Of a stretch of 64,000 nucleotides of DNA, positions 199-13,339 are shown in pieces. The notes under the pieces are model-generated. The model searched no databases, was not told the DNA's origin, and saw only the letters and a program-made list of their open reading frames with translations. The translations under genes were made by a program, and so were the position numbers. The first letter of the stretch is position 1. Every line of letters begins with the position of its first letter. The stretch covers positions 1-64,000 of the forward strand of contig CAJXUQ010000009.1 of the NCBI GenBank assembly GCA_913061145.1, read 5' to 3'. Source of the DNA: an uncultured Haliea sp. Lineage in GTDB: Bacteria; Pseudomonadota; Gammaproteobacteria; Pseudomonadales; Halieaceae.

Positions 199-999
199 CT
201 AGCGATCGCGAAACACCGGCGGGCGTCGCTCGACAAAGGCCAGCCCCGCTTCCGCTGCATCCTCGCTCAGGCCAAGCAGGGTCTGGTGACGATCTTCCAT
301 GGCCATGGCCGCCTGCAGGCTGGGGGCATCAATGGCGTAGTTCAGCGCCTCTTTGGTCAGGCGCAGGCCCATCGGCGTCGCCGCCAGCATGTCGTCGATA
401 TAGCCCTGCGCCTCGGCCGCCAGCCCGTCCTCTGCCACCACGCTGGACACCAGGCCGGTGGCAAGCGCGCGCGGAGCGTGAATGAAGCGTGCGGTCAACA
501 GCAGCTCTGAAGCCAGCGCAGCACCGACCAGGCGTGGCAGGAAATAGCTGCTGCCCATATCGCAACCGGTCAACCCGATGGACAGGTACGCGGCATTCAT
601 GCGTGCCGACTCAGCGGCGATACGTATGTCGGATGCCAGCGCCAGGCTGAAACCGCCACCACAGGCGGCGCCCTGCACCAACGTGATAACAGGCTGCGGG
701 CAGGCACGCATGGCCTGGTAGATACTCGCAATGCGACGCTGCACCTTCCAGATAGCGCGCGGGGAACGCGGCTGCGGATTGAACTCGGGCTCGGTGAGAT
801 CCAGCCCCGCACAGAAGTTGCGTCCGGCGGCCCGCAGCACGACCACCCGTACCTCCTCGCGGTCACGCAGTGCGGTAAAGTAGGTCAACAACGCATCAAC
901 CAGCGCAGCATTCAACGCATTGCTGCGCTCCGGACGGTTCAGGGTCAGCCATTCGACCGGGCCATGTTGCTCAATCAAAAGTGGGGTGGCTGTCTCCAT
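199..999 (-). CDS. Enoyl-CoA hydratase/isomerase (crotonase) family protein
   Basis: A 266-residue crotonase-fold protein acting on CoA thioesters in the cytoplasm. The oxyanion-hole segments are visible: NFCAGLDL at about 61-68 and QGAACGGGFSLA at about 109-120. The two glutamates of classical hydratases look absent: the position after GGGF is Ser117 rather than Glu, and the second falls at about Tyr138. The GLTGCDMG motif (about 142-149) is found in many uncharacterised members. So hydration of a plain enoyl-CoA should not be assumed; isomerase, hydrolase or C-C cleavage chemistry is open. It is the last gene of a minus-strand operon with the mutase and MeaB, 33 bases after meaB, which suggests it handles the mutase product or precursor. 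Confidence 0.85.
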   Translation of the reverse strand: METATPLLIEQHGPVEWLTLNRPERSNALNAALVDALLTYFTALRDREEVRVVVLRAAGRNFCAGLDLTEPEFNPQPRSPRAIWKVQRRIASIYQAMRACPQPVITLVQGAACGGGFSLALASDIRIAAESARMNAAYLSIGLTGCDMGSSYFLPRLVGAALASELLLTARFIHAPRALATGLVSSVVAEDGLAAEAQGYIDDMLAATPMGLRLTKEALNYAIDAPSLQAAMAMEDRHQTLLGLSEDAAEAGLAFVERRPPVFRDR

Positions 1000-1032: not shown

Positions 1033-2019
1033 TTACCCGGCGATGGCAGCGCTTGCCCGCCTGCAAAGCTCACGCAGCAAGACGTCTCCCGCCGCTGCCA
1101 TATCCAGTGCGCCAGCGGCGACAGCCTCCAGATGTGTGTCGGCAGCTCCCGAAGCAAACAGCTGATCCAGCTCTGCCTCCAGACGTGCGTCGATCAGGCC
1201 ATGCAACTCGGCCCGCAGCTGTTGTTGACGACGTGACGCCAATTCCCCGGACAGGGTGATGGCTTCGCGGTGTGACGCAATCGCTGCCCAGAGATCCGCC
1301 GCGCCACGACCCTCACTTGCCACCGTCTCGACAATCGCCGGCCGGCGCTCCGCCGGCAGGGAGGCAAGCGCACTTTCCAGATCCCGCCTGGTCGCCTGCA
1401 GGCCAGCCTTGTCGGCTTTGTTGATCACGAATATATCCGCGACTTCCATGAGCCCCGCCTTGTTGGCCTGAACCTCATCGCCCCAACCCGGGTTGAGTAC
1501 TACCACAACAGTGTCCGTGGTGGATGCCACGTCCAGCTCCACCTGCCCTACCCCAACCGTCTCGATAAGAATCAGTGGCCATCCACAGGCTTCCAGCAGG
1601 CGCCGGGCACTGCGGGTTGCCACGGCAAGCCCTCCGAGCTGGCCACGGGACGCCATCGAACGGATAAATACCTGGCTTGATGCAGCGTGCGAATGCATGC
1701 GCACGCGGTCGCCCAACAGGGCACCACGACTCAGAGGCGATGTCGGGTCCACTGCAAGCAGGGCGACACGCCCCGCATCCGCCAGCGCTTCACCCAGCAG
1801 CGTATTCACCAGCGTGGACTTGCCGGCACCGGGCGCCCCGGTGATACCCACGGTATAGCCCCCGGCGCCGCGAGAGGATAACCCCCGCTCTACGGATGCC
1901 GCGGCGTCACCGCCGCGCTCCAGAACGCTGATCAGACGCGCGAGCGCACCGCGATCGCCGGCACGTGCCCGCTCCAGTAGCTGGTCTGTGTCCTGCGCTG
2001 ATAGCTGGCTCACCGCCAT
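1033..2019 (-). CDS. meaB: MeaB/ArgK-family GTPase, acyl-CoA mutase chaperone
   Basis: A G3E-type P-loop GTPase of about 328 residues. Visible motifs are Walker A GAPGAGKST (about 61-69), the family motif DPTSPLSRGALLGDR, the switch segment ETVGVGQ and the base motif NKAD. MeaB proteins load adenosylcobalamin into B12-dependent acyl-CoA mutases and protect or reactivate them. Its position directly after the mutase small subunit fits that role. The start is uncertain: ATG at 2019 is used here; GTG at 2040 would overlap the upstream gene by 11 bases, and GTG at 2013 has the best-spaced GGGGA. No arginine transport role is implied by the old ArgK name. Confidence 0.9.
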   Translation of the reverse strand: MAVSQLSAQDTDQLLERARAGDRGALARLISVLERGGDAAASVERGLSSRGAGGYTVGITGAPGAGKSTLVNTLLGEALADAGRVALLAVDPTSPLSRGALLGDRVRMHSHAASSQVFIRSMASRGQLGGLAVATRSARRLLEACGWPLILIETVGVGQVELDVASTTDTVVVVLNPGWGDEVQANKAGLMEVADIFVINKADKAGLQATRRDLESALASLPAERRPAIVETVASEGRGAADLWAAIASHREAITLSGELASRRQQQLRAELHGLIDARLEAELDQLFASGAADTHLEAVAAGALDMAAAGDVLLRELCRRASAAIAG

Positions 2020-2029
2020 TCCCCGTCGC

Positions 2030-2416
2030 TCAGGCGGCACCCGTCAGGCGCATGGCGGCTGCGACGATGTCGGGCAACTGGCTACCCGGCGGGTAAACTT
2101 CAACGCCCAACCCCTCGAGCTTGCGCTTGGCATGGGGCGGCACCACACCACCGACAAAGATGGGCACTTCCGGCCTTGACTCACGCACCATGCCGATGGC
2201 GCGCACAGCGACGTCTACGTGGCCCCCAATATTCAGGCCGACAAGATCGACATCTTCGTCAATGCTCGCCTGCATCACTTCCTCAGGGCGCGCCATGCCG
2301 ATCATAATGACTTCAAAACCCGCGTCACGCAGCGCCTTGGCAACAACGGTAGGGCCACGCCAGTGTCCGTCGAGGCCGGTCTTTGCCATCAATATGCGTT
2401 TTCCTGCTGTGCTCAT
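2030..2416 (-). CDS. B12-binding small subunit of acyl-CoA mutase
   Basis: A 128-residue cobalamin-binding domain starting at MSTAGKRILMAK. The B12 motif DxHxxG is present as DGHWRG (16-21); His18 would replace dimethylbenzimidazole as the lower cobalt ligand. A Rossmann-like core follows with VGLNIGG and FVGGVVPP. Separate small subunits of this size are known from isobutyryl-CoA and 2-hydroxyisobutyryl-CoA mutases, whereas most methylmalonyl-CoA mutases carry this domain fused to a larger chain. It lies 10 bases after the large subunit, so the two are surely cotranscribed. An upstream in-frame start at 2476 would overlap the large subunit and is less likely. Confidence 0.92.
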   Translation of the reverse strand: MSTAGKRILMAKTGLDGHWRGPTVVAKALRDAGFEVIMIGMARPEEVMQASIDEDVDLVGLNIGGHVDVAVRAIGMVRESRPEVPIFVGGVVPPHAKRKLEGLGVEVYPPGSQLPDIVAAAMRLTGAA

Positions 2417-2426
2417 GTGTATCGCC

Positions 2427-4061
2427 TCAGGTCTGAATTGGAGTCGCCCAGTCACCAAACACGGAGCGATAAACATCGCCGATTTCGCCCAGAGTCACCT
2501 CAGCGGCCAGGGCATCCATCATCGCGGGCATGATGTTTTCGCCGTCACGACAGACTGACTCCAGCGCCCCAAGCGCTTGCGAGGCGCCTTTCTCGTAACG
2601 CGTTCTGCGTACCTCGTGCAACCTCTCCAGGGCGACATCGTAGGCGTCGTCGACACCCATAAACCCGTCCACATCGAAGGGCGACACATCATCTTTGTGG
2701 TCGGTAACGCCGATGATGACCTGCTCTCCACTCTCCTGCTGACGGAAGTCTTCGCTCTGGTTCTCAGCGGCACGTTCATGCAACCAGCCGGAATCGAGGG
2801 AAGCGAGGAAGCCACCCTGCTCCATAATCTCGTCGAAGAATTCCCAGGCGCGCTCGACCAGTTCTGCAGTCAGTGTCTCAACGTAATAGGAGCCACCCAG
2901 CGGATCGGTCACTGCCTGGATATTGGTCTCTTCCTGCAGGATCTGCTGAATCCGCACGGACATCTGGTGGGCATGTTCGGAAGGGATGGACAATGCCTCA
3001 TCGTAACCGGAAACTCCGAGGGACTGGACTCCGCCAAGCGCCGCCGCCAGGGCCATCACCGTGCCGCGTACGATATTGTTCAGCGGTTGCTGGTAGGTCA
3101 TCCGTGAACCGGCGGTCACGCAGTGGATGCGCAGGTTGGCGACCTTGGGGTTGGTAATGCCATAGCGGCGTTCCAGAAGCTGCTGCCACATCAGGCGAGC
3201 CGCCCGCATCTTGCTGGCTTCCTCGAACAGATCCATGGACGCACGAAAATTCACACCGCCACAGGCGCGAGCCGCGTTCTCCAGTGACATGGTGTTACGG
3301 CGCTTGATTTCCTCGAGGTACTCAACGGCGTTGGCAAACAGGGCTCCGAGCTCCTGATAGGCGTTGAGCCCCGTGTCGGCGCCGTTATAGCCGGCGATGG
3401 AGACAGGCACCCAGCGGGGCAGATGTTTGTCACAGAATTCCATGATATCGGCATTGAAGCGCAAGCCGTCCCGGGTGGGAATCTGTTGCTTGGTGACGCA
3501 CCCGAGGTAAGTCAGGAAGAAATCGCTCTGGCCGGTGCCGGGAAGACGTGCAAGGTCAACACCGCGCTGCTTCGCCACCGTCCAGTAGCCTGCAAGCGCA
3601 AAGGGTGCGTGTTGCACAACGGCGCCACCCGCATGGCCGTAGCTGGTCGCCAGGGGCAGATCCTTCATGCAGATGTCGATGTCGCGCACGCTCTGCATGA
3701 CCGCCCCCGTCAGGCCTACATCCTCGCGGCGTGCCACGACATCGGGATGATCCACGTTGTAGCAATGGTCGCCCGTGTTGCGATCATGCTCCATGATGAA
3801 CCCGGTTTCGCCTTGCTCCAGCAGGAAACGGATACGCTCGTTTTCGTCCTCTGGCTTGCCGAAGCCACTGAGCTGAAAGATACGCCAGGGCTTGGTTCGG
3901 TAGCCTGTCGGATAAGCTCCGCGGTGAAATGGGGATTCGCCGGGTGGTACAGCGACATGCTTGCGGTGAGACTCGGGAACGTCTTCGGGCGCATAGAAGT
4001 TCTTCAGATGCAGACCCGAAGCCGTGTTCCAAACCCTGCCGTTACCATTATTTGAATTCAT
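2427..4061 (-). CDS. Divergent B12-dependent acyl-CoA mutase, large subunit
   Basis: A 544-residue TIM-barrel catalytic subunit of the methylmalonyl-CoA mutase superfamily, without its own B12 domain. Hand alignment with the Propionibacterium enzyme (numbers from memory) puts Leu64 at Tyr89, Glu91 at Ala116, Val189 at Arg207 and Asn226 (in SIAGYNGADTG) at the catalytic His244. The spacings 64-91 and 189-226 match the reference exactly (27 and 37). Loss of Tyr89 and Arg207 rules out a normal methylmalonyl-CoA pocket. An acidic residue at 91 recalls the Asp at the same place in 2-hydroxyisobutyryl-CoA mutase, but the third pocket residue (Gln there, Val here) and the missing His differ. It is first in the operon with the small subunit, meaB and a crotonase. 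The substrate is unknown; I infer a branched or hydroxylated acyl-CoA. Confidence 0.9.
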   Translation of the reverse strand: MNSNNGNGRVWNTASGLHLKNFYAPEDVPESHRKHVAVPPGESPFHRGAYPTGYRTKPWRIFQLSGFGKPEDENERIRFLLEQGETGFIMEHDRNTGDHCYNVDHPDVVARREDVGLTGAVMQSVRDIDICMKDLPLATSYGHAGGAVVQHAPFALAGYWTVAKQRGVDLARLPGTGQSDFFLTYLGCVTKQQIPTRDGLRFNADIMEFCDKHLPRWVPVSIAGYNGADTGLNAYQELGALFANAVEYLEEIKRRNTMSLENAARACGGVNFRASMDLFEEASKMRAARLMWQQLLERRYGITNPKVANLRIHCVTAGSRMTYQQPLNNIVRGTVMALAAALGGVQSLGVSGYDEALSIPSEHAHQMSVRIQQILQEETNIQAVTDPLGGSYYVETLTAELVERAWEFFDEIMEQGGFLASLDSGWLHERAAENQSEDFRQQESGEQVIIGVTDHKDDVSPFDVDGFMGVDDAYDVALERLHEVRRTRYEKGASQALGALESVCRDGENIMPAMMDALAAEVTLGEIGDVYRSVFGDWATPIQT

Positions 4062-4098: not shown

Positions 4099-4127
4099 AA
4101 TGTAGTACCGCCCCCAGCCTTTGTCTA
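4099..4127 (-). promoter_or_regulatory. Putative sigma70 promoter of the mutase operon
   Basis: On the minus strand TAGACA (4127-4122) and TACATT (4104-4099) are separated by 17 bases and lie about 38 bases upstream of the mutase ATG at 4061. This is the only good match in the short divergent region. Confidence 0.4.
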
Positions 4128-4144
4128 CCATAAATATTTTTTCC

Positions 4145-4172
4145 TTGACGATCAGTAAAAAAAGCTTACTCT
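4145..4172 (+). promoter_or_regulatory. Putative sigma70 promoter of the plus-strand catabolic arm
   Basis: TTGACG (4145-4150) and TACTCT (4167-4172) are spaced by 16 bases in an A-rich stretch, about 50 bases before the dehydrogenase start at 4223. It lies back to back with the minus-strand promoter. Confidence 0.45.
4154..4170. promoter_or_regulatory. Inverted repeat AGTAA-N7-TTACT, candidate TetR operator
   Basis: Perfect 5-base arms at 4154-4158 and 4166-4170 sit inside the spacer of the plus-strand promoter, where a bound repressor would block RNA polymerase. The TetR gene two positions downstream (5419) is the natural candidate ligand. Short arms mean it could be chance. Confidence 0.35.
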
Positions 4173-4222
4173 TTGGCTACGCATGCCTCACCCAAAAAAT
4201 AATGAGCACATCGGGAGCAGCT

Positions 4223-5398
4223 ATGGCCATACAACCGAGCGTGGTGGGCCTGACCACAACGGAAAAAGTCTACCTCGGCGAACCCGCCGCAAAGGCGGTG
4301 GCGGCAGAAGCCGAGCGACTGCAGGCTGAGCGGGTGTTCCTGCTGGTCAGCCGCACCCTGAACACCCAGACAGACGAAATTGAACGCATCCGCAAGGCGC
4401 TGGGCCCTCGTGTCGCGGGGCTGTATGACGGCATGCCACCGCACGCCCCGCGCAGTGCTGTGCTGGCCGCTGCGGCCATGGCCCGCGATTCGCAGGCCGA
4501 CATGATTGTCACCGTGGGTGGCGGCTCGATTACCGACGCCGGCAAGATCGTCAGTCTCTGCCTGAAGCACAACCTCCGGGAGCACGATGACCTCGAGCCT
4601 TACCACGTCTATGTCAACGACGAGGGCGAGGTCATAAAGCCCGAATTCGAGGGGCCCGATATCCCCGTCGTCATCTGCCCGACAACGCTTTCGGGCGGCG
4701 AGTTCAACCCCCTGAGCGGCGCTACGGATGAGAAGATCCATCACAAGCAGGGATTTGAACACCGTGATATGGCACCGGTTGCCGTGATCCTTGATCCCGC
4801 GCTCACCTTGCATACGCCGGAGTGGCTTTGGCTGTCCACGGGGGTTCGGGCACTCGATCACGCACTTGAGACACTGGGGTCACTGCAATCGAATGACTTC
4901 TGCGATGGTATGGCCGACTCTGCCCTGCGGCTTCTGATTGAGGGCTTGCCCGGGGTCAAGAACAACCCCGGGGATCTGGCGGCACGCCTGAAGTGCCAGG
5001 TTGGCGCGTGGCAATCAATGATTCCGGTGATTGCCGGCGTCCCCATGGGCCTGAGCCATGCGATCGGCCACATCCTGGGGGGCACCTGTGACGTGCCCCA
5101 TGGCTATTGCTCATGCGTCATGGCGCCCGCCGTGCTGGCCTACAACGCCCCGGTCAACGGCGAGCGCCAGAAACGCATCAGCCAGTGCTTTGGTCAGCCG
5201 GACAGACCGGCCAGCGAACTGGTCGACGTATTCATTCGCAGCCTCGGCATGCCGCGCTCACTGCGCGAGGTCAACGTTGACAGCGACCGTCTGCAGCAGG
5301 TTGCCGAATACACGATGCTCGACCTCTGGGCGCGAACCAACCCGCGCCCCGTTACCGGCGCAGCTGATGTGCTGCCGGTACTGGAAATGGCGCTATAG
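4223..5398 (+). CDS. Iron-containing-alcohol-dehydrogenase family protein (maleylacetate-reductase-like)
   Basis: A 391-residue NAD(P)-dependent dehydrogenase. The nucleotide motif TVGGGSITDAGK is at 97-108. Of the usual metal ligands, His213 (in ALDH), His283 (in SHAIGH) and His293 (in VPHG) are present, but the first one, normally Asp in the D-A-L-x-H motif, is Arg209. Maleylacetate reductases also vary at this place (often Asn), so the enzyme may work without iron. It probably interconverts an alcohol and a ketone or aldehyde in the local pathway. Start chosen at ATG 4223, which has GGGAG five bases upstream; in-frame starts further upstream (4121, 4202) have poor ribosome sites and would add an unrelated N-terminus. 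Confidence 0.85.
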   Translation: MAIQPSVVGLTTTEKVYLGEPAAKAVAAEAERLQAERVFLLVSRTLNTQTDEIERIRKALGPRVAGLYDGMPPHAPRSAVLAAAAMARDSQADMIVTVGGGSITDAGKIVSLCLKHNLREHDDLEPYHVYVNDEGEVIKPEFEGPDIPVVICPTTLSGGEFNPLSGATDEKIHHKQGFEHRDMAPVAVILDPALTLHTPEWLWLSTGVRALDHALETLGSLQSNDFCDGMADSALRLLIEGLPGVKNNPGDLAARLKCQVGAWQSMIPVIAGVPMGLSHAIGHILGGTCDVPHGYCSCVMAPAVLAYNAPVNGERQKRISQCFGQPDRPASELVDVFIRSLGMPRSLREVNVDSDRLQQVAEYTMLDLWARTNPRPVTGAADVLPVLEMAL

Positions 5399-5418: not shown

Positions 5419-6081
5419 GTGACCGCCGCCCGACCCGGAAAGAACCTCAAAGCGGAGCTCGCACTGTTCAAGCGGCGCCGTATCCGCGATGAGGCAAGTC
5501 ATCTGTTTTTCCGGTTCGGGTACGAGGGCACAACCATCGATGCCATTGCCGACCAGCTGCAGGTCACCAAGCCTTTCATCTACAGCTACTACAAGAACAA
5601 GGGCGAGATTCTCTACGACATCGCCGAGGTTGGCATCAGCGTCTCTCTGGAGGCGCTGAACAAATCCCTGCTGTCGTCAGGGTCGCACTGGGACCGACTG
5701 AAGCTGGTCGTCGATCAGGTAGCGCGCCTGATCATCGAAAACCAGGAACACATCGTTGTGTATCTGCGCGAGGAGAAAAACCTCGAACAGGGCGCCGCGC
5801 GCCGGGTGCGCGAGAAGCGTTCCCTGTTTGACCACCGTCTCGCAGAACTGCTGACCAATGGTCACGCAGAGGGTGAATTTGACGTTGAGGATCCCGTCCT
5901 CACTGCCACAACCATTGGCGGAATGATGAGCTGGGTCGCGCTCTGGTACCAGCCGGGGGGAAGCTGGTCCGAAGCGGAAATCATCACGCATGTCATCCGC
6001 AGCGTTGCGAGGCTGGTTCTGCCACGCACCATGCCCACGACCAGAACCGCCGCCGGCAAGCGGCCCGCCACCCCGCAATGA
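5419..6081 (+). CDS. TetR/AcrR-family transcriptional regulator
   Basis: A 220-residue one-component regulator. The N-terminal helix-turn-helix lies at about residues 18-65, with the TetR signature GYEGTTIDAIADQLQVTKPFIYSY split over helices 2-3. The remaining 150 residues are the variable ligand domain. GTG start at 5419 with GGAGGA eight bases upstream. It sits between the dehydrogenase and the ligase genes in the same direction (20 and 21 base gaps), so it most likely senses a pathway intermediate or CoA thioester and controls both divergent arms from the palindrome near 4160. Confidence 0.9.
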   Translation: MTAARPGKNLKAELALFKRRRIRDEASHLFFRFGYEGTTIDAIADQLQVTKPFIYSYYKNKGEILYDIAEVGISVSLEALNKSLLSSGSHWDRLKLVVDQVARLIIENQEHIVVYLREEKNLEQGAARRVREKRSLFDHRLAELLTNGHAEGEFDVEDPVLTATTIGGMMSWVALWYQPGGSWSEAEIITHVIRSVARLVLPRTMPTTRTAAGKRPATPQ

Positions 6082-6102: not shown

Positions 6103-7719
6103 ATGACTGGCCACCAATGCGCCGATCCGAGGGTCCCAGACAGAGAAACCTGCGTGGTCAGGTATCTCATCGATCGTTGGGCAGAACAACAACCCGACCA
6201 CGTGTACGCGATCTTTGACGATGGCAGACAATGGACTTACGCCGAACTGCGCGACCGGGTCAGACAGGTTGCCGGCGGCCTGCATGCCCGGGGAGTCCGT
6301 CAGGGCGACCACGTGGCGGTGTGGCTGTTTGGAGGCGCCGAGGGCATTCTCAGTTTTTTTGCCATCAATTACCTGGGGGCAGTTTTCGTGCCCTTCAACA
6401 CGGCCTACAAGGGCAACCTGCTGGCCCATGTACTGGCCAACTCCGATGCCCGTCTGCTGATTGCACACGGAGAACTGGTCGAGCGGCTCGACGACATCGA
6501 CACGGCGCTGATCGAAAAGGTACTGACCACCGGAACCACAAGCCCACAGATAAAACTGCCCTGTGAGCCGTTTTCTGCCCTGGCGTCGACACAGAATCAG
6601 CCCCCCGAACCCGACAGCCCGATAGAACCCTGGAATACCCAGTCCATCATTTACACCTCCGGCACAACAGGGCCGTCGAAAGGCGTACTCTCGTCCTATC
6701 TGCATTTGTTTACCAATGCAGGCCCGGAAACCTGGCACTTTATTACCGGCGAGGACAGGTTCCTGGTGAATATGCCGCTGTTCCATATTGGCGGCATGGG
6801 CATTATCTTCGTGATGCTGGCACGCGGCGGTTCGATCGCAGTCATGGAGAACTTCAGCACCGAGAGTTTCTGGCCTTTCGTGCGCGAAACCGAGACGTCA
6901 GCAGCCTTCCTGCTCGGTGTTATGGCCACCTTCCTGCTCAAACAGCCGGCGACAGAAGACGACAGAAAGCATGGACTGAAAAAGGTGTTCATGGTGCCAC
7001 TGACCGAAGCGGCCAGCGAGCTGCACCAGCGCTTCGGTATCGACGTCTACACCATTTTCAACATGACAGAGATCTCTTCTCCCATCGTCTCCGAACCGAA
7101 TCCCACCCGGCGCGGCACCTGCGGCAAAGTTCGCCCCGGTGTGGATGTGCGTCTGGTCGATGAGAACGACTGCGAAGTGCCGTTGGGCGACGTTGGAGAA
7201 ATGCTGGTGCGCACGGATCGTCCCTGGGGCATGAATCACGGGTACTACAAGAACCCCGAAGCGACCGCCGAAGCCTGGCGCAATGGATGGTTCCACACCG
7301 GGGATTGTTTCCGTCAGGATGAGGAAGGCTTTTTCTATTTCGTCGACCGGCGTAAAGACGCCATCAGGCGCCGCGGTGAGAACATTTCATCCTTCGAAGT
7401 CGAAGCGGAGGTGGTCGCCTACCCCGCGGTGCGCGAAGCCGCTGCCTACGGCGTTCCCAGCGACGTCGGTGAAGACGACGTGATGGTGGCAGTCGCCGCA
7501 ATTGAGGGGTCTGCGATTGATCCGGCTGAATTGCTCGATTTCCTGCAACAACGCATGCCCTACTTCATGGTGCCGCGCTACATCAGGATTCTACCTGAGC
7601 TGCCCAAGACACCTTCTGCGAAGGTGCAGAAGCACATCCTGCGTAGCGAAGCTGTGACGAAAGACAGCTGGGACAGAGAACAACACGGCGTATCGATTCG
7701 CCGGGAAAAACTCAAATAG
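6103..7719 (+). CDS. AMP-forming acyl-CoA ligase (ANL superfamily)
   Basis: A 538-residue adenylate-forming enzyme that activates a carboxylic acid to its CoA thioester. The P-loop YTSGTTGPSKG spans about 184-194. The A8 hinge region appears as GWFHTGD and DRRKDAIRRRGENIS, and the C-terminal catalytic lysine is Lys507 in TPSAKVQK. The closest general type is the medium-chain/crotonobetaine-CaiC-like group; the substrate cannot be read from the sequence. Placed after the regulator and before the TonB receptor, it would supply the acyl-CoA on which the crotonase and B12 mutase act. Confidence 0.9.
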   Translation: MTGHQCADPRVPDRETCVVRYLIDRWAEQQPDHVYAIFDDGRQWTYAELRDRVRQVAGGLHARGVRQGDHVAVWLFGGAEGILSFFAINYLGAVFVPFNTAYKGNLLAHVLANSDARLLIAHGELVERLDDIDTALIEKVLTTGTTSPQIKLPCEPFSALASTQNQPPEPDSPIEPWNTQSIIYTSGTTGPSKGVLSSYLHLFTNAGPETWHFITGEDRFLVNMPLFHIGGMGIIFVMLARGGSIAVMENFSTESFWPFVRETETSAAFLLGVMATFLLKQPATEDDRKHGLKKVFMVPLTEAASELHQRFGIDVYTIFNMTEISSPIVSEPNPTRRGTCGKVRPGVDVRLVDENDCEVPLGDVGEMLVRTDRPWGMNHGYYKNPEATAEAWRNGWFHTGDCFRQDEEGFFYFVDRRKDAIRRRGENISSFEVEAEVVAYPAVREAAAYGVPSDVGEDDVMVAVAAIEGSAIDPAELLDFLQQRMPYFMVPRYIRILPELPKTPSAKVQKHILRSEAVTKDSWDREQHGVSIRREKLK

Positions 7720-7766: not shown

Positions 7767-9965
7767 ATGCATAACACGATAAGAACAGGCATTTATGCAG
7801 GGCTGCTTGGCGCCCTGGCACTCTCACAAACCACCCTGGCGCAGAACACCCTCGAGGAGGTCGTGGTCACTGCGACCAAACGTTCGGTCAGCCTCGACGA
7901 CTTTTCTGGTGGCGCCAACGTGATTGGTGCCGATGAACTTGGCCCCGGTGGCATCGAAAACGTTCGCGACATGCTGGTCGCGGTGCCCAACATGTCCATC
8001 GGCGACCAGTTTGGCTTTGCCCGCGTGTTCATTCGCGGCATCGGCATGACCAGCATCGATATCGGTGGCGAGGGTGCCGTCTCCTTCCTGCAGGACGGCG
8101 CCATTATCCCGCGTCCCGCCGCCCAGTTGGCGGGCATGTTTGATCTCGCACAGGTGGAGGTGCTGCGCGGCCCACAGGGCACACTCTACGGGCGCGGCGC
8201 CACGGCAGGTGCTATCAACCTGGTGACCAATAAACCCGGTGACGAATTTGGAGGCTACGCAAACCTCACGGCGGGCAACTACGGTCTGGGACTGTTTGAG
8301 GGCGCGGTCGATATGCCCATGGCGCCCGACTTCTCAGTCCGTCTCGCCACCAAGCTGGAAAAGCGTGACGGCTACGGCGACAACCTGTTTACCGGCAATG
8401 ATGTCGACGACCGTGACGCTCAGGCCTACCGCGCGACCTTTGCCTACAATCCAGATGCCGCCTGGGATGCCACTCTGTCACTGCAGTATTATGAAGAAGA
8501 CGATAACAACTTCGCCTTCCACTACTTTGGCCCCTCGCTGGGCACTGCGGGCGGCCTGCCGCCCGCAGTGCCTGTGCTTGGCGGCCGCACCGTGTTCGAT
8601 GTCGGCGGCGACTTCTATGACATCAACTCGGACCAGGAAGCCATCAACACGCGCGAGGGCTACGGCGCCACACTGCTGCTCAACTTCGAACTCAGCGACA
8701 GCCTGAACCTTCGCTCAGTAACGTCGCTGCAGGGGCTTGACCGCTTCCTCCGGGATGACCTCGACTCCACCGATGCCGACCTGTTCGGGCGCAACGACTA
8801 CACGGAGGAAAGCGACTCCTTCGGTCAGGAATTCGTCTTTAATTACTCGGGTGACGGCTACGACCTGCTGGCGGGTGTCATGTACCTGCAGGAAGACCTG
8901 TATGGCAATGTTTTCGTACCCCTGAACAATATCTGCTTCCTGCTCGCGCCTGATCTCTGCGGCACACCGATTGGCGATGCCATCAACAGCGGCCGTTATG
9001 AACAGAATGGTGACGTGGATATTACCGCCTACGGTGCCTTCGCGGAGTTGAACTACCCGATCACCGACACCCTCACCGTCATCGCGGGGCTGCGCTATAA
9101 CTATGAAGAGAGGGACGGCACCGGCTTCTTTCGCTTCGATGCTGCCGGCATCGACATCAGCACCGACAAATCCGCTGATTGGGACGACATTACACCGCGC
9201 CTGACGCTGGAGTATCGCAGTGACGATAATTCACTGCTCTACGCCACCTACACCCAGGCCTTCAAATCCGGCGTCATCAACACCGGCAGCCTCAGCGACC
9301 CGCTCGACCCCGAAACGGTCGATGCTTTCGAAGCCGGCTACAAGTGGAGCGCGCCGGACGGTTCGCTGTCCTATGCGCTGTCCGCCTTTTACTACGACTA
9401 TCAGGACCTGCAAATCTCCTTTGTTGATGAAACCAGCACCGTTACCACCATCAACGCCGCGAAGGCCGAGAACTACGGCATTGAACTGGAAATGGACGCC
9501 CAACTCGGTGGCGGATTCTCGGTTGACCTGTATGCAACCTACCTGAGCGCAGAGTACAAGGAATTCCTGAATGGCGACTATGCCAATGCCTTTGAAGTCA
9601 CCGACCTCAGCGGCAACACCCTGCCCAACGCACCGGAATACACCGTCAAAGCGGGTGTGAATTATGAGGTCCCGGTGGGTGACGGACTGCTGCATCTGCG
9701 CGGCGAAGCCTACTATCAGGACGACATCTACTTCACCGAATGGAACCGCAGCGACGCCTTCCAGGAGGGCTACGGTCTGTTGAATGCACGGGCGGACTAC
9801 GCTTTCCCGGGGGACAGCTGGATTGTCAGCCTGTGGGCGAGAAACCTGTCCGATGAGGAGGTGATCTCGAACAACATCATTACCGCGCCGCTCTACAACT
9901 CATTGCGCGTCGGTTCCATGCTGCCGCCCCGCACCTACGGCGCCAGCGTGTCCTACCAGTTCTGA
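7767..9965 (+). CDS. TonB-dependent outer-membrane receptor
   Basis: A 732-residue receptor. It has a signal peptide (about 1-25, ending TLAQ), a TonB box LEEVVVTATK at about 28-37, a plug domain with the typical LRGPQGTLYGRGATAG segment, and a 22-strand-type barrel ending in aromatic Phe (SYQF). Ribosome site GAGGA just upstream. TonB receptors of this CirA/FecA-like, iron-independent group often import hydrophobic plant or steroid compounds in marine and sphingomonad degraders. Its place among catabolic genes suggests that it takes up the substrate of this cluster rather than a siderophore. Confidence 0.92.
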   Translation: MHNTIRTGIYAGLLGALALSQTTLAQNTLEEVVVTATKRSVSLDDFSGGANVIGADELGPGGIENVRDMLVAVPNMSIGDQFGFARVFIRGIGMTSIDIGGEGAVSFLQDGAIIPRPAAQLAGMFDLAQVEVLRGPQGTLYGRGATAGAINLVTNKPGDEFGGYANLTAGNYGLGLFEGAVDMPMAPDFSVRLATKLEKRDGYGDNLFTGNDVDDRDAQAYRATFAYNPDAAWDATLSLQYYEEDDNNFAFHYFGPSLGTAGGLPPAVPVLGGRTVFDVGGDFYDINSDQEAINTREGYGATLLLNFELSDSLNLRSVTSLQGLDRFLRDDLDSTDADLFGRNDYTEESDSFGQEFVFNYSGDGYDLLAGVMYLQEDLYGNVFVPLNNICFLLAPDLCGTPIGDAINSGRYEQNGDVDITAYGAFAELNYPITDTLTVIAGLRYNYEERDGTGFFRFDAAGIDISTDKSADWDDITPRLTLEYRSDDNSLLYATYTQAFKSGVINTGSLSDPLDPETVDAFEAGYKWSAPDGSLSYALSAFYYDYQDLQISFVDETSTVTTINAAKAENYGIELEMDAQLGGGFSVDLYATYLSAEYKEFLNGDYANAFEVTDLSGNTLPNAPEYTVKAGVNYEVPVGDGLLHLRGEAYYQDDIYFTEWNRSDAFQEGYGLLNARADYAFPGDSWIVSLWARNLSDEEVISNNIITAPLYNSLRVGSMLPPRTYGASVSYQF

Positions 9966-10049: not shown

Positions 10050-11126
10050 ATGGCTTCTTCAGAAAAACTGCAGCTGGGCGTCTTTATGCCCAACTGTTCG
10101 AACATGCCCTCCATCTCGACACACGCGGTTGTCGCGGATCAATGGCATTACGAGAACAACGAACGCATTGCGTTGCTTGCCGAGCGACTGGGCTTCCGTT
10201 ACCTCTTCCCAGTGAGCCGCTGGCGTGGCTTTGGCGGTACAACCAATTTTCTTGGCATATCACTGGAAACCAACACCTGGGCCGCGGCCCTGCTGCGGGC
10301 CACGCGCAGCATACGGGTCTTTTCCACAGTCCACGTTCCGCTGTTTCATCCCGTTGTGATGGCCAAGATCGGCGCCACCCTGGCACACATGAGCGGTGAC
10401 CGGTGGGGGCTGAACGTGGTGAGCGGCTGGAGCGAGCGCGAGTTTGGCATGATGGGTATCACCCTCGCGGAGCACAGCCGACGCTACGAGCGCACGGGGG
10501 CATTCGTCGATATTCTGCGCAAACTCTGGGACCCCGGACAAGCGCCACTGGACCACCATTCAGAGTGGTACACAATCACCGCGGGCGTGTCCTTGCCACG
10601 CCCGGCTCGCATGCCCGAGATCGCCAACGCCGGCGTTTCAGCAGATGCCCGTGCCATGACTGCAGAGTATTGTGATTGGTCGTTCATGTCAGGCGCCAGC
10701 ATCGAGGCCCTGCCGGCACTGGTAAATTCGGTCCACGCCGATGCGGAGCGCTTCCAGCGCAAGGTCCGTACAGCCATATTTCCCTTCCCGTTATGGCGGG
10801 ATTCCGCCTCACAGGCGGAGGACGAGCTGGCCAGAATCATCGAGCACAAAGACGCGGAGGCCACTGGCAACTGGCTGCGGGATATCGGTGCAGGCAGCGG
10901 CTCCTTCGACACCTTCACCGAGAATATGCTGGCTGCCAGCGGCGGTGGTTTGAACCTGATCGGCACCGCAGAAGATGTCGCGGAACAGCTGCAAGCGGTG
11001 CATCGCTCAGGGGTCAATGCGGTGATGCTGACATTCCAGGATTACGAAAGGGACCTGCAACGCTTTGCGACGGATATTCTCCCGCTGTTGAAACGGATGC
11101 AGATTGTGGATACCAGCGAGGCATAG
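10050..11126 (+). CDS. Luciferase-like flavin monooxygenase, RutA/SfnG-like
   Basis: A 358-residue bacterial-luciferase-fold enzyme. Segments RGFGGTTNFLG, LNVVSGWSEREFGMMGI and RYERTGAFVDILRKLW line up with RutA (pyrimidine ring-opening) and SfnG (dimethylsulfone) monooxygenases. That group uses reduced FMN supplied by a separate reductase, and some members form a flavin-N5-peroxide that attacks carbonyl carbons, cleaving C-N, C-S or C-Cl bonds. In this cluster it could perform a Baeyer-Villiger-like or ring-opening step before the MBL hydrolase. No flavin reductase is encoded nearby. First gene of a tight trio with the hydrolase (4 base gap) and P450. Confidence 0.88.
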   Translation: MASSEKLQLGVFMPNCSNMPSISTHAVVADQWHYENNERIALLAERLGFRYLFPVSRWRGFGGTTNFLGISLETNTWAAALLRATRSIRVFSTVHVPLFHPVVMAKIGATLAHMSGDRWGLNVVSGWSEREFGMMGITLAEHSRRYERTGAFVDILRKLWDPGQAPLDHHSEWYTITAGVSLPRPARMPEIANAGVSADARAMTAEYCDWSFMSGASIEALPALVNSVHADAERFQRKVRTAIFPFPLWRDSASQAEDELARIIEHKDAEATGNWLRDIGAGSGSFDTFTENMLAASGGGLNLIGTAEDVAEQLQAVHRSGVNAVMLTFQDYERDLQRFATDILPLLKRMQIVDTSEA

Positions 11127-11130
11127 CGCC

Positions 11131-12090
11131 ATGCGACCAACACCCGAGTCGCCCGACTTCATGGTCGGGAAATTTGCAATCCATAACATCGAAGAGTGGC
11201 AGGGAGAGTTTGCCCGGCCGCAGGATCTGTTTGCCGGTTTCGACGCAAAGGACTTCGCCACTTTTTCCGCCCGGATTCCGCTCGACTACTACCATCCACA
11301 GAGCGACCGCATCTACGCATTCCTGCAAAGCTGGGTTATATGCGCCAACGGTCTCACCATTCTCTACGACACCGGGGCGGGAAATGACAAGCCACGACCG
11401 GGAATACCGGTTTTTGGCGACCTGCACACCCCGTTTCTCGGCAACCTCGCCCGCGCCGGGTTCGCCCCTGAGGATATCGACATTGTTATCTGCTCTCACC
11501 TGCATATCGACCATGTAGGCTGGAACACTCGCCTTGAGAACGGTGCCTGGGTGCCTACGTTTCCCCGCGCGCGCTACCTGATGTCGAGCATTGATCGCAA
11601 CTACTGGGATCCTGCGGGCAGCGGTGATCGACCCAGCCTCACGGGTAGCCAGGTGAACGCACAGGTGTTCGAAGACAGTGTGCAGCCGATTCTGGACGCC
11701 GGACTGGCGGAGCTTGTCGACGGCACCTATGAAATCGCACCGGGAATAACACTGTGGCTGGCACCCGGCCATACACCCGGCCATCTTGTGCTCGAGCTGC
11801 AGAGCCAGGGTGAGAACGCGCTGTTCGTTGGTGACATCCTGCACCATCCGGCCCAGGTCTTCAGGCCGGACTGGAACAGCGTGTACTGCGAAGACCAGGG
11901 AGCGGCGCGACAAACCCGGCGCAAGATTCTCCAACAGGCCGCCGATCGCCAGGCACGCGTTGTCCCGGCGCATTTCGGCGGCGGCCATTCGGTCTGGATC
12001 GAGCACTGTGATGACGGCTTCCGGCCCCGATTCCCCCACAGCGAGCCAGACGTATCCCGCATCGGACCGGAGGGCGCCGGGCATGAGTGA
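11131..12090 (+). CDS. Metallo-beta-lactamase-fold hydrolase, lactonase-like
   Basis: A 319-residue MBL-fold protein with a complete dinuclear metal site: His123, His125, Asp127 and His128 (in SHLHIDHVGW), His214 (APGHTPGH), Asp235 (FVGDILHH) and His281 (VPAHFGG). This arrangement is shared with AHL lactonases and related ester hydrolases, while glyoxalase II and lactamases differ in surrounding loops. No signal peptide, so cytoplasmic. It starts 4 bases after the monooxygenase and overlaps the P450 start by 8 bases, which strongly implies a shared pathway. Opening a lactone or ester made by the monooxygenase is the simplest reading, but this is inference. ATG 11131 is preferred to the TTG at 11104, which would overlap the upstream gene. 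Confidence 0.87.
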   Translation: MRPTPESPDFMVGKFAIHNIEEWQGEFARPQDLFAGFDAKDFATFSARIPLDYYHPQSDRIYAFLQSWVICANGLTILYDTGAGNDKPRPGIPVFGDLHTPFLGNLARAGFAPEDIDIVICSHLHIDHVGWNTRLENGAWVPTFPRARYLMSSIDRNYWDPAGSGDRPSLTGSQVNAQVFEDSVQPILDAGLAELVDGTYEIAPGITLWLAPGHTPGHLVLELQSQGENALFVGDILHHPAQVFRPDWNSVYCEDQGAARQTRRKILQQAADRQARVVPAHFGGGHSVWIEHCDDGFRPRFPHSEPDVSRIGPEGAGHE

Positions 12091-13339
12091 GCAGCGCAGT
12101 GTGGCAGCGAACCGACCGACTGTTCACTTCGACCCCACCAACGCCTCGTTGATCGAGAATCCGCACCGTGTGTTTGCGGAGTTTCGACAGCGGTCACCGG
12201 TGGTATGGAATGAAGCAGGCTTCTGGATCGCCACCGGCTACGACACCGTGCGTTCAGTCATCATCGACAAGCGGAATTTCGGTCAGGGCGATTTCATTCG
12301 CAACATACAGCTCTACTACGGCGACGGTTTCGATGTGTTTGCGCATTCTGCCTATCGATGGCTCTCCGAAGTGTTCGTCTACCAGGATCCGCCACGCCAT
12401 ACACGTATTCGCGGCCTTGTATCGCAGGCGCTCACCGTCAGGCGGGTGCGGGAAATGCGCCCTGATATTGAAGCCATAACCCACGGTTTACTGGACCGCG
12501 TTGCCGATCAGGGGAGCATGGAGTTGATCCACGATTTCGCCTACCGTCTGCCTACCCTGGTTATGTGCAACATGCTGGGCATTGGCGCAGACGAGGCCGA
12601 TGAAGCCCTGCTGACGCGACTGAACCAGGCCATCGCCGACGCCTTTCTGGTGCTGGAAATGCGGCCCTTGACTACCGCGGAACTCGAGCTGGCCAACCGT
12701 CAGACCGACTTCTTGGAATCCTTCTTTGGTGAGATTTTCGAGCGGCGACGCAAGCAGCCCCGCGACGACCTCGCCACAGCCCTGCTACACGCCCGTGACG
12801 GCGACAGCCAACTCACCGAGCGCGAGATGATCACAGTGGCCATCGCCCTGTTCGGCGCTGGATTCGAGACCACTGCCCACATGATCGGTAACGGCGTTCT
12901 GGTGCTCAGGCAGAACCCACAGGAATGGCAGACGCTGGTCGCCACACCGGAACTGGCCGCCCGCGCCACGGAAGAGATTCTGCGCTACGAGAGCTCGCTC
13001 ATTGCCACCTACCGTACCGCGTTCAACGACATCGAGGTGGGCGGACAAACCATACAGGCCGGGGAGCGGGTGCTGGCCGTGCTGGCGGCGGCAAATCGCG
13101 ACCCCGGGATGTTCCCGCAGCCTGATACCTTTACGATTGAGCGCGAGGGCGCGCATCACCTCGCATTCGGCGGCGGTATACACTTTTGTGTGGGGGCCGA
13201 ACTGGCAAGGCTGGAAGGGGAGATTGCACTGCGTGCACTGGCCACCCGGATGCCCGCCCTTGAAGTGGTAGAAAGCACGCCGCAGTGGCGTCCGGGCTTT
13301 ATGTTTCGCGGGCTCAGCGAACTCCGGGTGCGCTGGTAG
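12083..13339 (+). CDS. Cytochrome P450, bacterial class I
   Basis: A soluble 418-residue P450. The heme loop [10 protein letters not shown] gives Cys369 as the iron ligand, the I-helix oxygen motif is AGFETT (259-264) with Thr263, and the K-helix ExxR is Glu298-Arg301. No membrane anchor. It would hydroxylate a small hydrophobic substrate using electrons from a ferredoxin and ferredoxin reductase, neither of which is encoded in this window. ATG at 12083 lies inside the end of the MBL gene (ATGAGTGA overlap), so translation is coupled. Its last 26 bases overlap the end of the convergent lipB gene, an unusually tight junction. Confidence 0.94.

Follow-up and report, generated by a model that had tools for sequence, protein, structure and literature searches.

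A divergent two-subunit B12-dependent mutase of the acyl-CoA mutase superfamily, with a conserved new pocket, in a Halieaceae gene cluster

RESULTS

Genes and features of the mutase locus

We analysed a 64,000-nucleotide stretch of DNA (the window) that begins a contig of an uncultured Haliea sp. The genes and features of the mutase cluster are as follows.

199..999, minus strand: enoyl-CoA hydratase/isomerase, the final gene of the mutase operon on the contig (matches to crotonase-family NCBIfam models, below equivalog cut-offs)
1033..2040 (likely start 2019), minus strand: MeaB/MeaH-type G-protein chaperone of the mutase (TIGR00750, 277 bits; cut-off 240.75)
2030..2416 (longer ORF 2030-2476), minus strand: small B12-binding mutase subunit, ~128 aa (TIGR00640, PDB alignments)
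2427..4061, minus strand: large (catalytic, TIM-barrel) mutase subunit, 544 aa (TIGR00641, PF01642, AlphaFold2 model, ortholog alignment)
4154..4170, no strand: AGTAA-N7-TTACT palindrome, candidate TetR operator (divergent promoter, intergenic comparison)
4121..5398 (likely start 4202 or 4223), plus strand: iron-containing alcohol dehydrogenase, divergent to the mutase (NCBIfam and PDB matches)
5419..6081, plus strand: TetR-family regulator (profile match)
6103..7719, plus strand: AMP-forming acyl-CoA ligase, PRK06155/FadD5-like (PRK06155, 481 bits, cut-off 722; PDB FadD5, 192 bits)
7767..9965, plus strand: TonB-dependent outer-membrane receptor (profile match, locus clustering)
10050..11126, plus strand: luciferase-like flavin monooxygenase, SfnG/RutA-like (profile and PDB matches)
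11104..12090, plus strand: metallo-beta-lactamase-fold hydrolase, lactonase-like (profile match; Pfam Lactamase_B in the homolog at locus L041)
12098..13339, plus strand: cytochrome P450, CYP107-like (PDB and Pfam matches)

The cluster stops at ~13.34 kb in the window, where the adjoining genes read as lipoate and cell-envelope genes, names that come from sequence reading.

The two subunits belong to the B12 acyl-CoA mutase superfamily

An initial annotation made from the DNA letters had described 2030-4061 as a B12-dependent acyl-CoA mutase, and profile searches confirmed a pair of this type. The large subunit scored 385.6 bits against TIGR00641 (cut-off 303.8) and 463.4 bits against PF01642 (cut-off 22.1), and the small subunit scored 94.0 bits against TIGR00640 (cut-off 57.45). 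The likely start of the small subunit is the ATG at 2416, ten bases past the large-subunit stop codon. Its B12 motif DxHxxG is present as LDGHWRG with the axial His intact, and is identical in all 40 small subunits compared. The Ser of the SxL motif is replaced by Asn in most orthologs and is Ser or His in a few; the window sequence also contains GLNIGG. The Trp of DGHWRG occupies a position at which methylmalonyl-CoA mutase (MCM) and 2-hydroxyisobutyryl-CoA mutase (HCM) carry Asp.

An AlphaFold2 model of the large subunit, built from 30 sequences as the chain without ligand and without the B12 subunit, had a mean pLDDT of 87 and a pTM of 0.90. Its best PDB match was HCM (4R3U; Z 44.9, rmsd 2.0 Å over 520 residues), with which MCM structures were tied as a fold match at Z ~44, followed by IcmF at Z ~37. 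Comparison of the model with 4R3U thus bore out the TIM-barrel mutase fold. In every testable respect, 2427-4061 and 2030-2416 encode members of the B12 acyl-CoA mutase superfamily. The catalytic activity would be an AdoCbl-dependent 1,2-rearrangement, presumably of an acyl-CoA with a branched skeleton.

Only one further PF01642 protein is encoded in the same genome, in a 737-aa frame that scored 794 bits and has the Y-A-R-H pocket of MCM. Because a normal MCM is present elsewhere in the genome, we rejected the possibility that the mutase of 2427-4061 is the housekeeping enzyme.

A conserved pocket quartet with Cys at the Arg207 position

Tyr89 and Arg207 of MCM bind the carboxylate of the substrate. 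The initial annotation had aligned Leu64, Glu91, Val189 and Asn226 of the large subunit with Tyr89, Ala116, Arg207 and His244 of MCM, with exact spacing within both pairs. Three of these assignments held in unambiguous, gap-free alignments: Leu64, between invariant Q63 and G66, corresponds to Tyr89; Glu91, between G87 and invariant D93, corresponds to Ala116 of MCM and Asp117 of HCM; and Asn226, directly after Y225, corresponds to His244. The fourth was off by one. The QSD...P stretch of the large subunit has a one-residue insertion beside the Arg207 position, and the spacing of the second pair, although numerically correct, conceals this indel. HMMER, hhalign (ortholog against reference profiles) and the larger MAFFT runs all placed Cys188 opposite Arg207 of MCM and Gln208 of HCM; a single small MAFFT run placed it opposite a gap. 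All 38 orthologs have Cys188, which is the first residue past helix 181-187 in the AlphaFold2 model, whereas the Val189 position varies among V, I, L and P. Thus, Cys188 rather than Val189 is most likely the equivalent of Arg207. Whichever residue is taken, this position holds neither Arg nor Gln, so that Tyr89, Arg207 and His244 are all changed, as originally claimed (to Leu64, Cys188 or Val189, and Asn226).

The quartet at the Tyr89, Ala116, Arg207 and His244 positions is LECN in 36 of the 38 orthologs and LKCN in the other two (L047 and L058), and this L-E/K-C-N combination was absent from all other sequences collected. The corresponding residues are YARH in MCM, ECM and a Marinobacter-type group, IDQH or VDQH in HCM, FAQH in IcmF and ICM-type proteins, and LLNH or LINH in PCM-type proteins, the ECM rows having been assigned by length and motif and the stand-alone ICM reference (L158) by pocket residues, in neither case by assay. 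The view that the pocket is unlike that of characterised members was therefore upheld against MCM, HCM, ICM/IcmF, ECM and PCM-type Xaut_5043, the set used for pockets and trees, from which Kyrpidia RCM and Streptomyces IcmA were left out. Conservation across 38 orthologs and three phyla indicates that the quartet is real rather than a chance combination. When 249 genomes were surveyed from the phylum to which a Clostridia MAG belongs, most of the proteins obtained had Tyr, Ala and His in the pocket.

Replacements reach the CoA tunnel and the adenosyl site

The four-residue change was real but understated the divergence of the protein. At ten further MCM positions the replacements are invariant or nearly so across the ortholog family: Thr85 to Arg60 (invariant), Arg87 to Phe62 (near-invariant), Ser114 to Ile89 (31 of 38 orthologs), Ser164 to His143 (invariant), Thr166 to Gly145, Asn236 to Val218, Ser285 to Gly269, Gln330 to Val315, His364 to Gly349 and Asn366 to Ser351. 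Arg273 is an additional new residue and is invariant among orthologs. Thr195, Gln197, Tyr243, His328, Gln361 and Glu370 of MCM are kept. We take Arg82, Thr85, Arg87, Ser114, Arg283 and Ser285 of MCM to be CoA contacts, and Gln330, Asn366 and Glu370 to be contacts of the adenosyl group; the replacements thus extend into the CoA tunnel and the adenosyl site. Arg87 and Ser114 are retained throughout the characterised mutase families. Because several of these presumed CoA contacts are lost, we are less sure than for HCM that the substrate is a CoA ester.

The orthologs form a separate clade

About 40 orthologs share 56-99% identity, and the best match outside the family is at 36.5%. In 98 related genomes, a protein search recovered 13 orthologs (73-99% identity), below which no match exceeded 36%, and a scan of GTDB contigs found ~40 orthologs at 60-99%, after which the next matches fell to 32%; the nearest named record was a Halieaceae MAG (99% identical). 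Among 398 genomes spread evenly over the phylum, the only ortholog was that of the window itself. Although some MAG labels may be wrong, the members are mainly Halieaceae, together with Rhodospirillales, other Proteobacteria MAGs, Acidimicrobiia (including the isolate Acidithrix ferrooxidans), a Jatrophihabitans MAG and a Ktedonobacterales (Chloroflexota) MAG. The Acidithrix locus is on an isolate contig, near genes read as gyrase. One locus labelled as a Klebsiella pneumoniae MAG (L032) bears a Halieaceae-type cluster, and its label is probably wrong.

In trees of 54 and 35 sequences the ortholog family formed one clade (SH-aLRT 100) on a stem of ~1.7-1.8 changes per site. A tree was among the checks that the initial annotation had proposed, and in both trees the 2427-4061 protein and its orthologs lay outside the MCM, HCM, ICM/IcmF, ECM and PCM-type clades. 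The HCM sequences clustered without the ortholog family, and a grouping of the two was neither supported nor rejected. The accessible parts of the literature searched, which lacked the key HCM and RCM primary papers, contained no description of this mutase pocket or family.

Other mutase-like proteins with unusual pockets appeared in the same collections. One family of 36 sequences (L064-L101, for example L064:9989-11635 and L098), uncharacterised and with many members starting MKRETDYG, has the pocket T-I-Q-H and occurs in Rhodocyclales, Burkholderiales, Deltaproteobacteria and Rhodospirillales MAGs; the equivalents of Gln197, Tyr243 and Glu370 are missing in most or all of its members. A second odd mutase with the pocket V-E-V-Q, found in L141 and L142 (genomes G007 and G005, of the window's genus) and in L144, has Glu at the Asp117 position of HCM and lacks His244. 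The mutase-like proteins of L063, L143, L087, L145 and L159 have the pockets I-V-G-E/D, L-I-Y-V or L-I-G-F, and L159 has Asn at the His244 position. By sequence, the LECN family is one among several putative, unexplored mutase branches with unusual pockets (TIQH, VEVQ, IVGE/D, LIYV and LIGF).

A conserved gene cluster accompanies the mutase

The initial annotation had missed the neighbours of the mutase, among which a CoA ligase, an iron-containing alcohol dehydrogenase, a TetR regulator, a TonB receptor and beta-oxidation genes co-occur with it. Across 41 loci, several of which are cut by contig ends, single-linkage clusters that may contain paralogues gave a similar neighbour for the B12 subunit in 40, the ligase in 32, MeaB in 30, TetR in 29, the TonB receptor in 27, enoyl-CoA hydratase in 25, the P450 and the flavin monooxygenase in 15 each, acyl-CoA dehydrogenase in 12, the lactonase-like hydrolase in 11 and an SDR in 9. 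The alcohol dehydrogenase divergently adjoins the mutase in ~28 of these loci. Between L033, L041 and the window the order of these genes differs but the set does not, an argument for a single pathway. The ligase adjoins the mutase even in Acidithrix and the Ktedonobacterales MAG, and in these two loci a nitroreductase-family protein is also present (L056:9274-9969 and L054:14328-15041); none was seen in the Halieaceae loci. No ligase was seen beside the mutase in the distant Rhodospirillaceae members L051 and L059.

The window MeaB is 42% identical to MeaB of the Xanthobacter HCM operon. In contrast, the window ligase showed no real similarity to the HCL homolog of that operon (23.5 bits). 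The alcohol dehydrogenase resembles 4-hydroxybutyrate dehydrogenase and maleylacetate reductase in its NCBIfam and PDB matches, and no PDB match of the alcohol dehydrogenase, P450, monooxygenase or ligase pointed to a substrate. The flavin monooxygenase is most similar to SfnG (dimethylsulfone monooxygenase) and RutA (pyrimidine monooxygenase), far under the curated cut-offs for both, and its own substrate could hint at the pathway. The palindrome at 4154..4170 is classed as a candidate operator because the pattern is no commoner than a reversed control pattern; a genome-wide search for co-regulated genes found none, the sole other exact site in the genome being intragenic.

DISCUSSION

A proposed role in degradation of a branched acyl-CoA

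The computed results described above are the fold and family of the mutase, its B12 motif, the pairing of its subunits, the new pocket with its conservation, and the gene cluster. We consider it rather probable that the locus encodes a two-subunit AdoCbl-dependent carbon-skeleton mutase of a new subfamily, which would make a branched acyl-CoA, probably a bulkier or polar one, accessible to beta-oxidation. In the proposed pathway, an acid would be imported or formed by the TonB receptor and oxidases of the cluster, and the neighbouring ligase would convert it to the CoA thioester. The mutase would then homolyse AdoCbl, abstract a hydrogen from the acyl chain and shift the thioester carbonyl between adjacent carbons (a 1,2-shift), turning a branched acyl-CoA that resists beta-oxidation into one that can be beta-oxidised. 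Enoyl-CoA hydratase, together with the acyl-CoA dehydrogenase and SDR of related loci, would complete the degradation. We infer this order of steps, as well as the nature of the acyl group, which probably exceeds the C4-C5 groups of MCM, ICM, HCM and PCM in size or polarity. A larger group is suggested because four pocket changes lose volume (Tyr to Leu, Arg to Cys, His to Asn and Thr to Gly) against one that gains it (Ala to Glu), and a polar group because the pocket has new charges (Glu91, His143 and Arg273).

A new branched or hydroxy acyl-CoA substrate had been suggested at the outset. New specificity is indeed likely, because the pocket is unlike those of MCM, HCM, ICM/IcmF, ECM and PCM-type enzymes and the protein lies outside their clades; the hydroxy part of the suggestion was weakened, since Glu91 is not strictly conserved. 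The acidic residue at position 91 does match HCM in its placement, but Cys188, Asn226, His143 and Arg273 have no HCM counterpart. We therefore regard as unlikely an HCM-like 2-hydroxyacyl-CoA mutase in which Glu91, acting as Asp117 does in HCM, would bind the hydroxyl group of a 2-hydroxy-2-methyl acyl-CoA, or of the corresponding 3-hydroxy isomer, whose side chain is larger than that of 2-hydroxyisobutyrate. This possibility draws on the acidic residue that 36 of 38 orthologs carry at the Asp117 position, on the resemblance of Leu64 to Ile90 of HCM, on HCM being the top PDB match by both sequence and fold, and on trees that do not reject HCM as sister; it is at odds with Lys at position 91 in L047 and L058, replacement of Gln208 and His245 of HCM by Cys and Asn, a ligase of another type than HCL, and the fact that no 3-hydroxybutyryl-CoA dehydrogenase was recognised beside the mutase.

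Similarly doubtful is a pivalyl-CoA-like mutase that would shift the thioester carbonyl away from a quaternary alpha-carbon in a larger acyl-CoA, either gem-dimethyl or derived from a ring, such as one arising in terpenoid breakdown. Leu occupies the Tyr89 position as in PCM-type Xaut_5043, and P450, SDR, lactonase-like hydrolase, ligase, acyl-CoA dehydrogenase and enoyl-CoA hydratase genes recur near the mutase across phyla. However, the rest of the PCM-type pocket differs (L-L-N-H) and its clade is separate, no neighbouring gene is diagnostic for terpenoids, and charged pocket residues would be odd for a hydrocarbon acyl group.

The changes at the presumed CoA contacts of MCM, largely fixed (T85R, R87F, S114I, N236V and S285G), the new barrel residue Arg273, and the retention of R87 and S114 throughout characterised families would fit a mutase that acts on a free or otherwise carrier-bound acid instead of a CoA ester threaded through the barrel, with the ligase acting on its product. 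We find this new reaction class for the fold improbable, since the cluster includes its own acyl-CoA ligase as well as beta-oxidation genes, Lys57 and Arg/Lys265 may stand in for Arg82 and Arg283, and the nearest fold is a CoA enzyme. Finally, loss of the Tyr89, Arg207 and His244 equivalents might suggest an MCM paralogue that has decayed or has no catalytic function, like the beta subunit of heterodimeric MCM, but we rejected this as very improbable because the new residues are invariant over three phyla, the active-site residues Q197, Y243 and E370 are kept, and the protein has its own B12 subunit and MeaB in a conserved operon.

Significance

To our knowledge, very few acyl-CoA skeleton rearrangements of the B12 superfamily have been characterised, namely those of methylmalonyl-, ethylmalonyl-, isobutyryl-, pivalyl- and 2-hydroxyisobutyryl-CoA. 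Pathways were opened up by several of the characterised mutases (propionate, fuel oxygenates and the ethylmalonyl-CoA pathway). Because its active site departs from those of the studied enzymes at nearly every key position, the mutase of a new subfamily that we favor very probably rearranges a compound still to be discovered. A compact, conserved, shuffled-but-intact cluster combined with a pocket that matches none of these mutases points to a new degradation route, in marine Halieaceae and several other lineages, with defined genes to test. The dedicated gene cluster makes the LECN family one of the easier unexplored mutase branches to test.

Comparison with known systems

We take Xaut_5043/5044 to be of the pivalyl-CoA mutase (PCM) type. 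This system resembles that of the window in its two subunits, clustered together with MeaB, TetR and CoA ligases, and in carrying Leu at the Tyr89 position and a one-residue insertion near Arg207, but Xaut_5043 has an L-L-N-H pocket and lies in a separate clade. ECM/MeaA shares the fold but is a single chain with a fused B12 domain and a Y-A-R-H pocket, in a separate clade. The published work consulted describes MCM and IcmF, with activity on isobutyryl/pivalyl substrates (PMC10481361), HCM and RCM together with the ligase operons to which they belong (PMC7176365), a lactyl-CoA mutase derived from HCM (PMC11599936) and HCM acting in isobutylene catabolism (PMC13188929). ICM/IcmF has the acyl-CoA mutase fold, but its pocket is F-A-Q-H, IcmF is fused to a GTPase, and identity to IcmF is 23-24% across the fold. 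MCM shares the fold, DxHxxG, Q197, Y243, H328 and E370 with the window protein, in which Tyr89, Arg207 and His244 are replaced and identity is ~33%. HCM (PDB 4R3U; Aquincola/Methylibium) likewise has separate large and small subunits, a MeaB-type chaperone and a CoA ligase nearby, as well as an aliphatic residue at the Tyr89 position and an acidic residue at 117. It differs in that the window protein is 31-33% identical, has Cys for Gln208, Asn for His245, Phe for Arg87 and Ile for Ser114, is accompanied by a ligase that is not of the HCL type, and lies outside the HCM clade.
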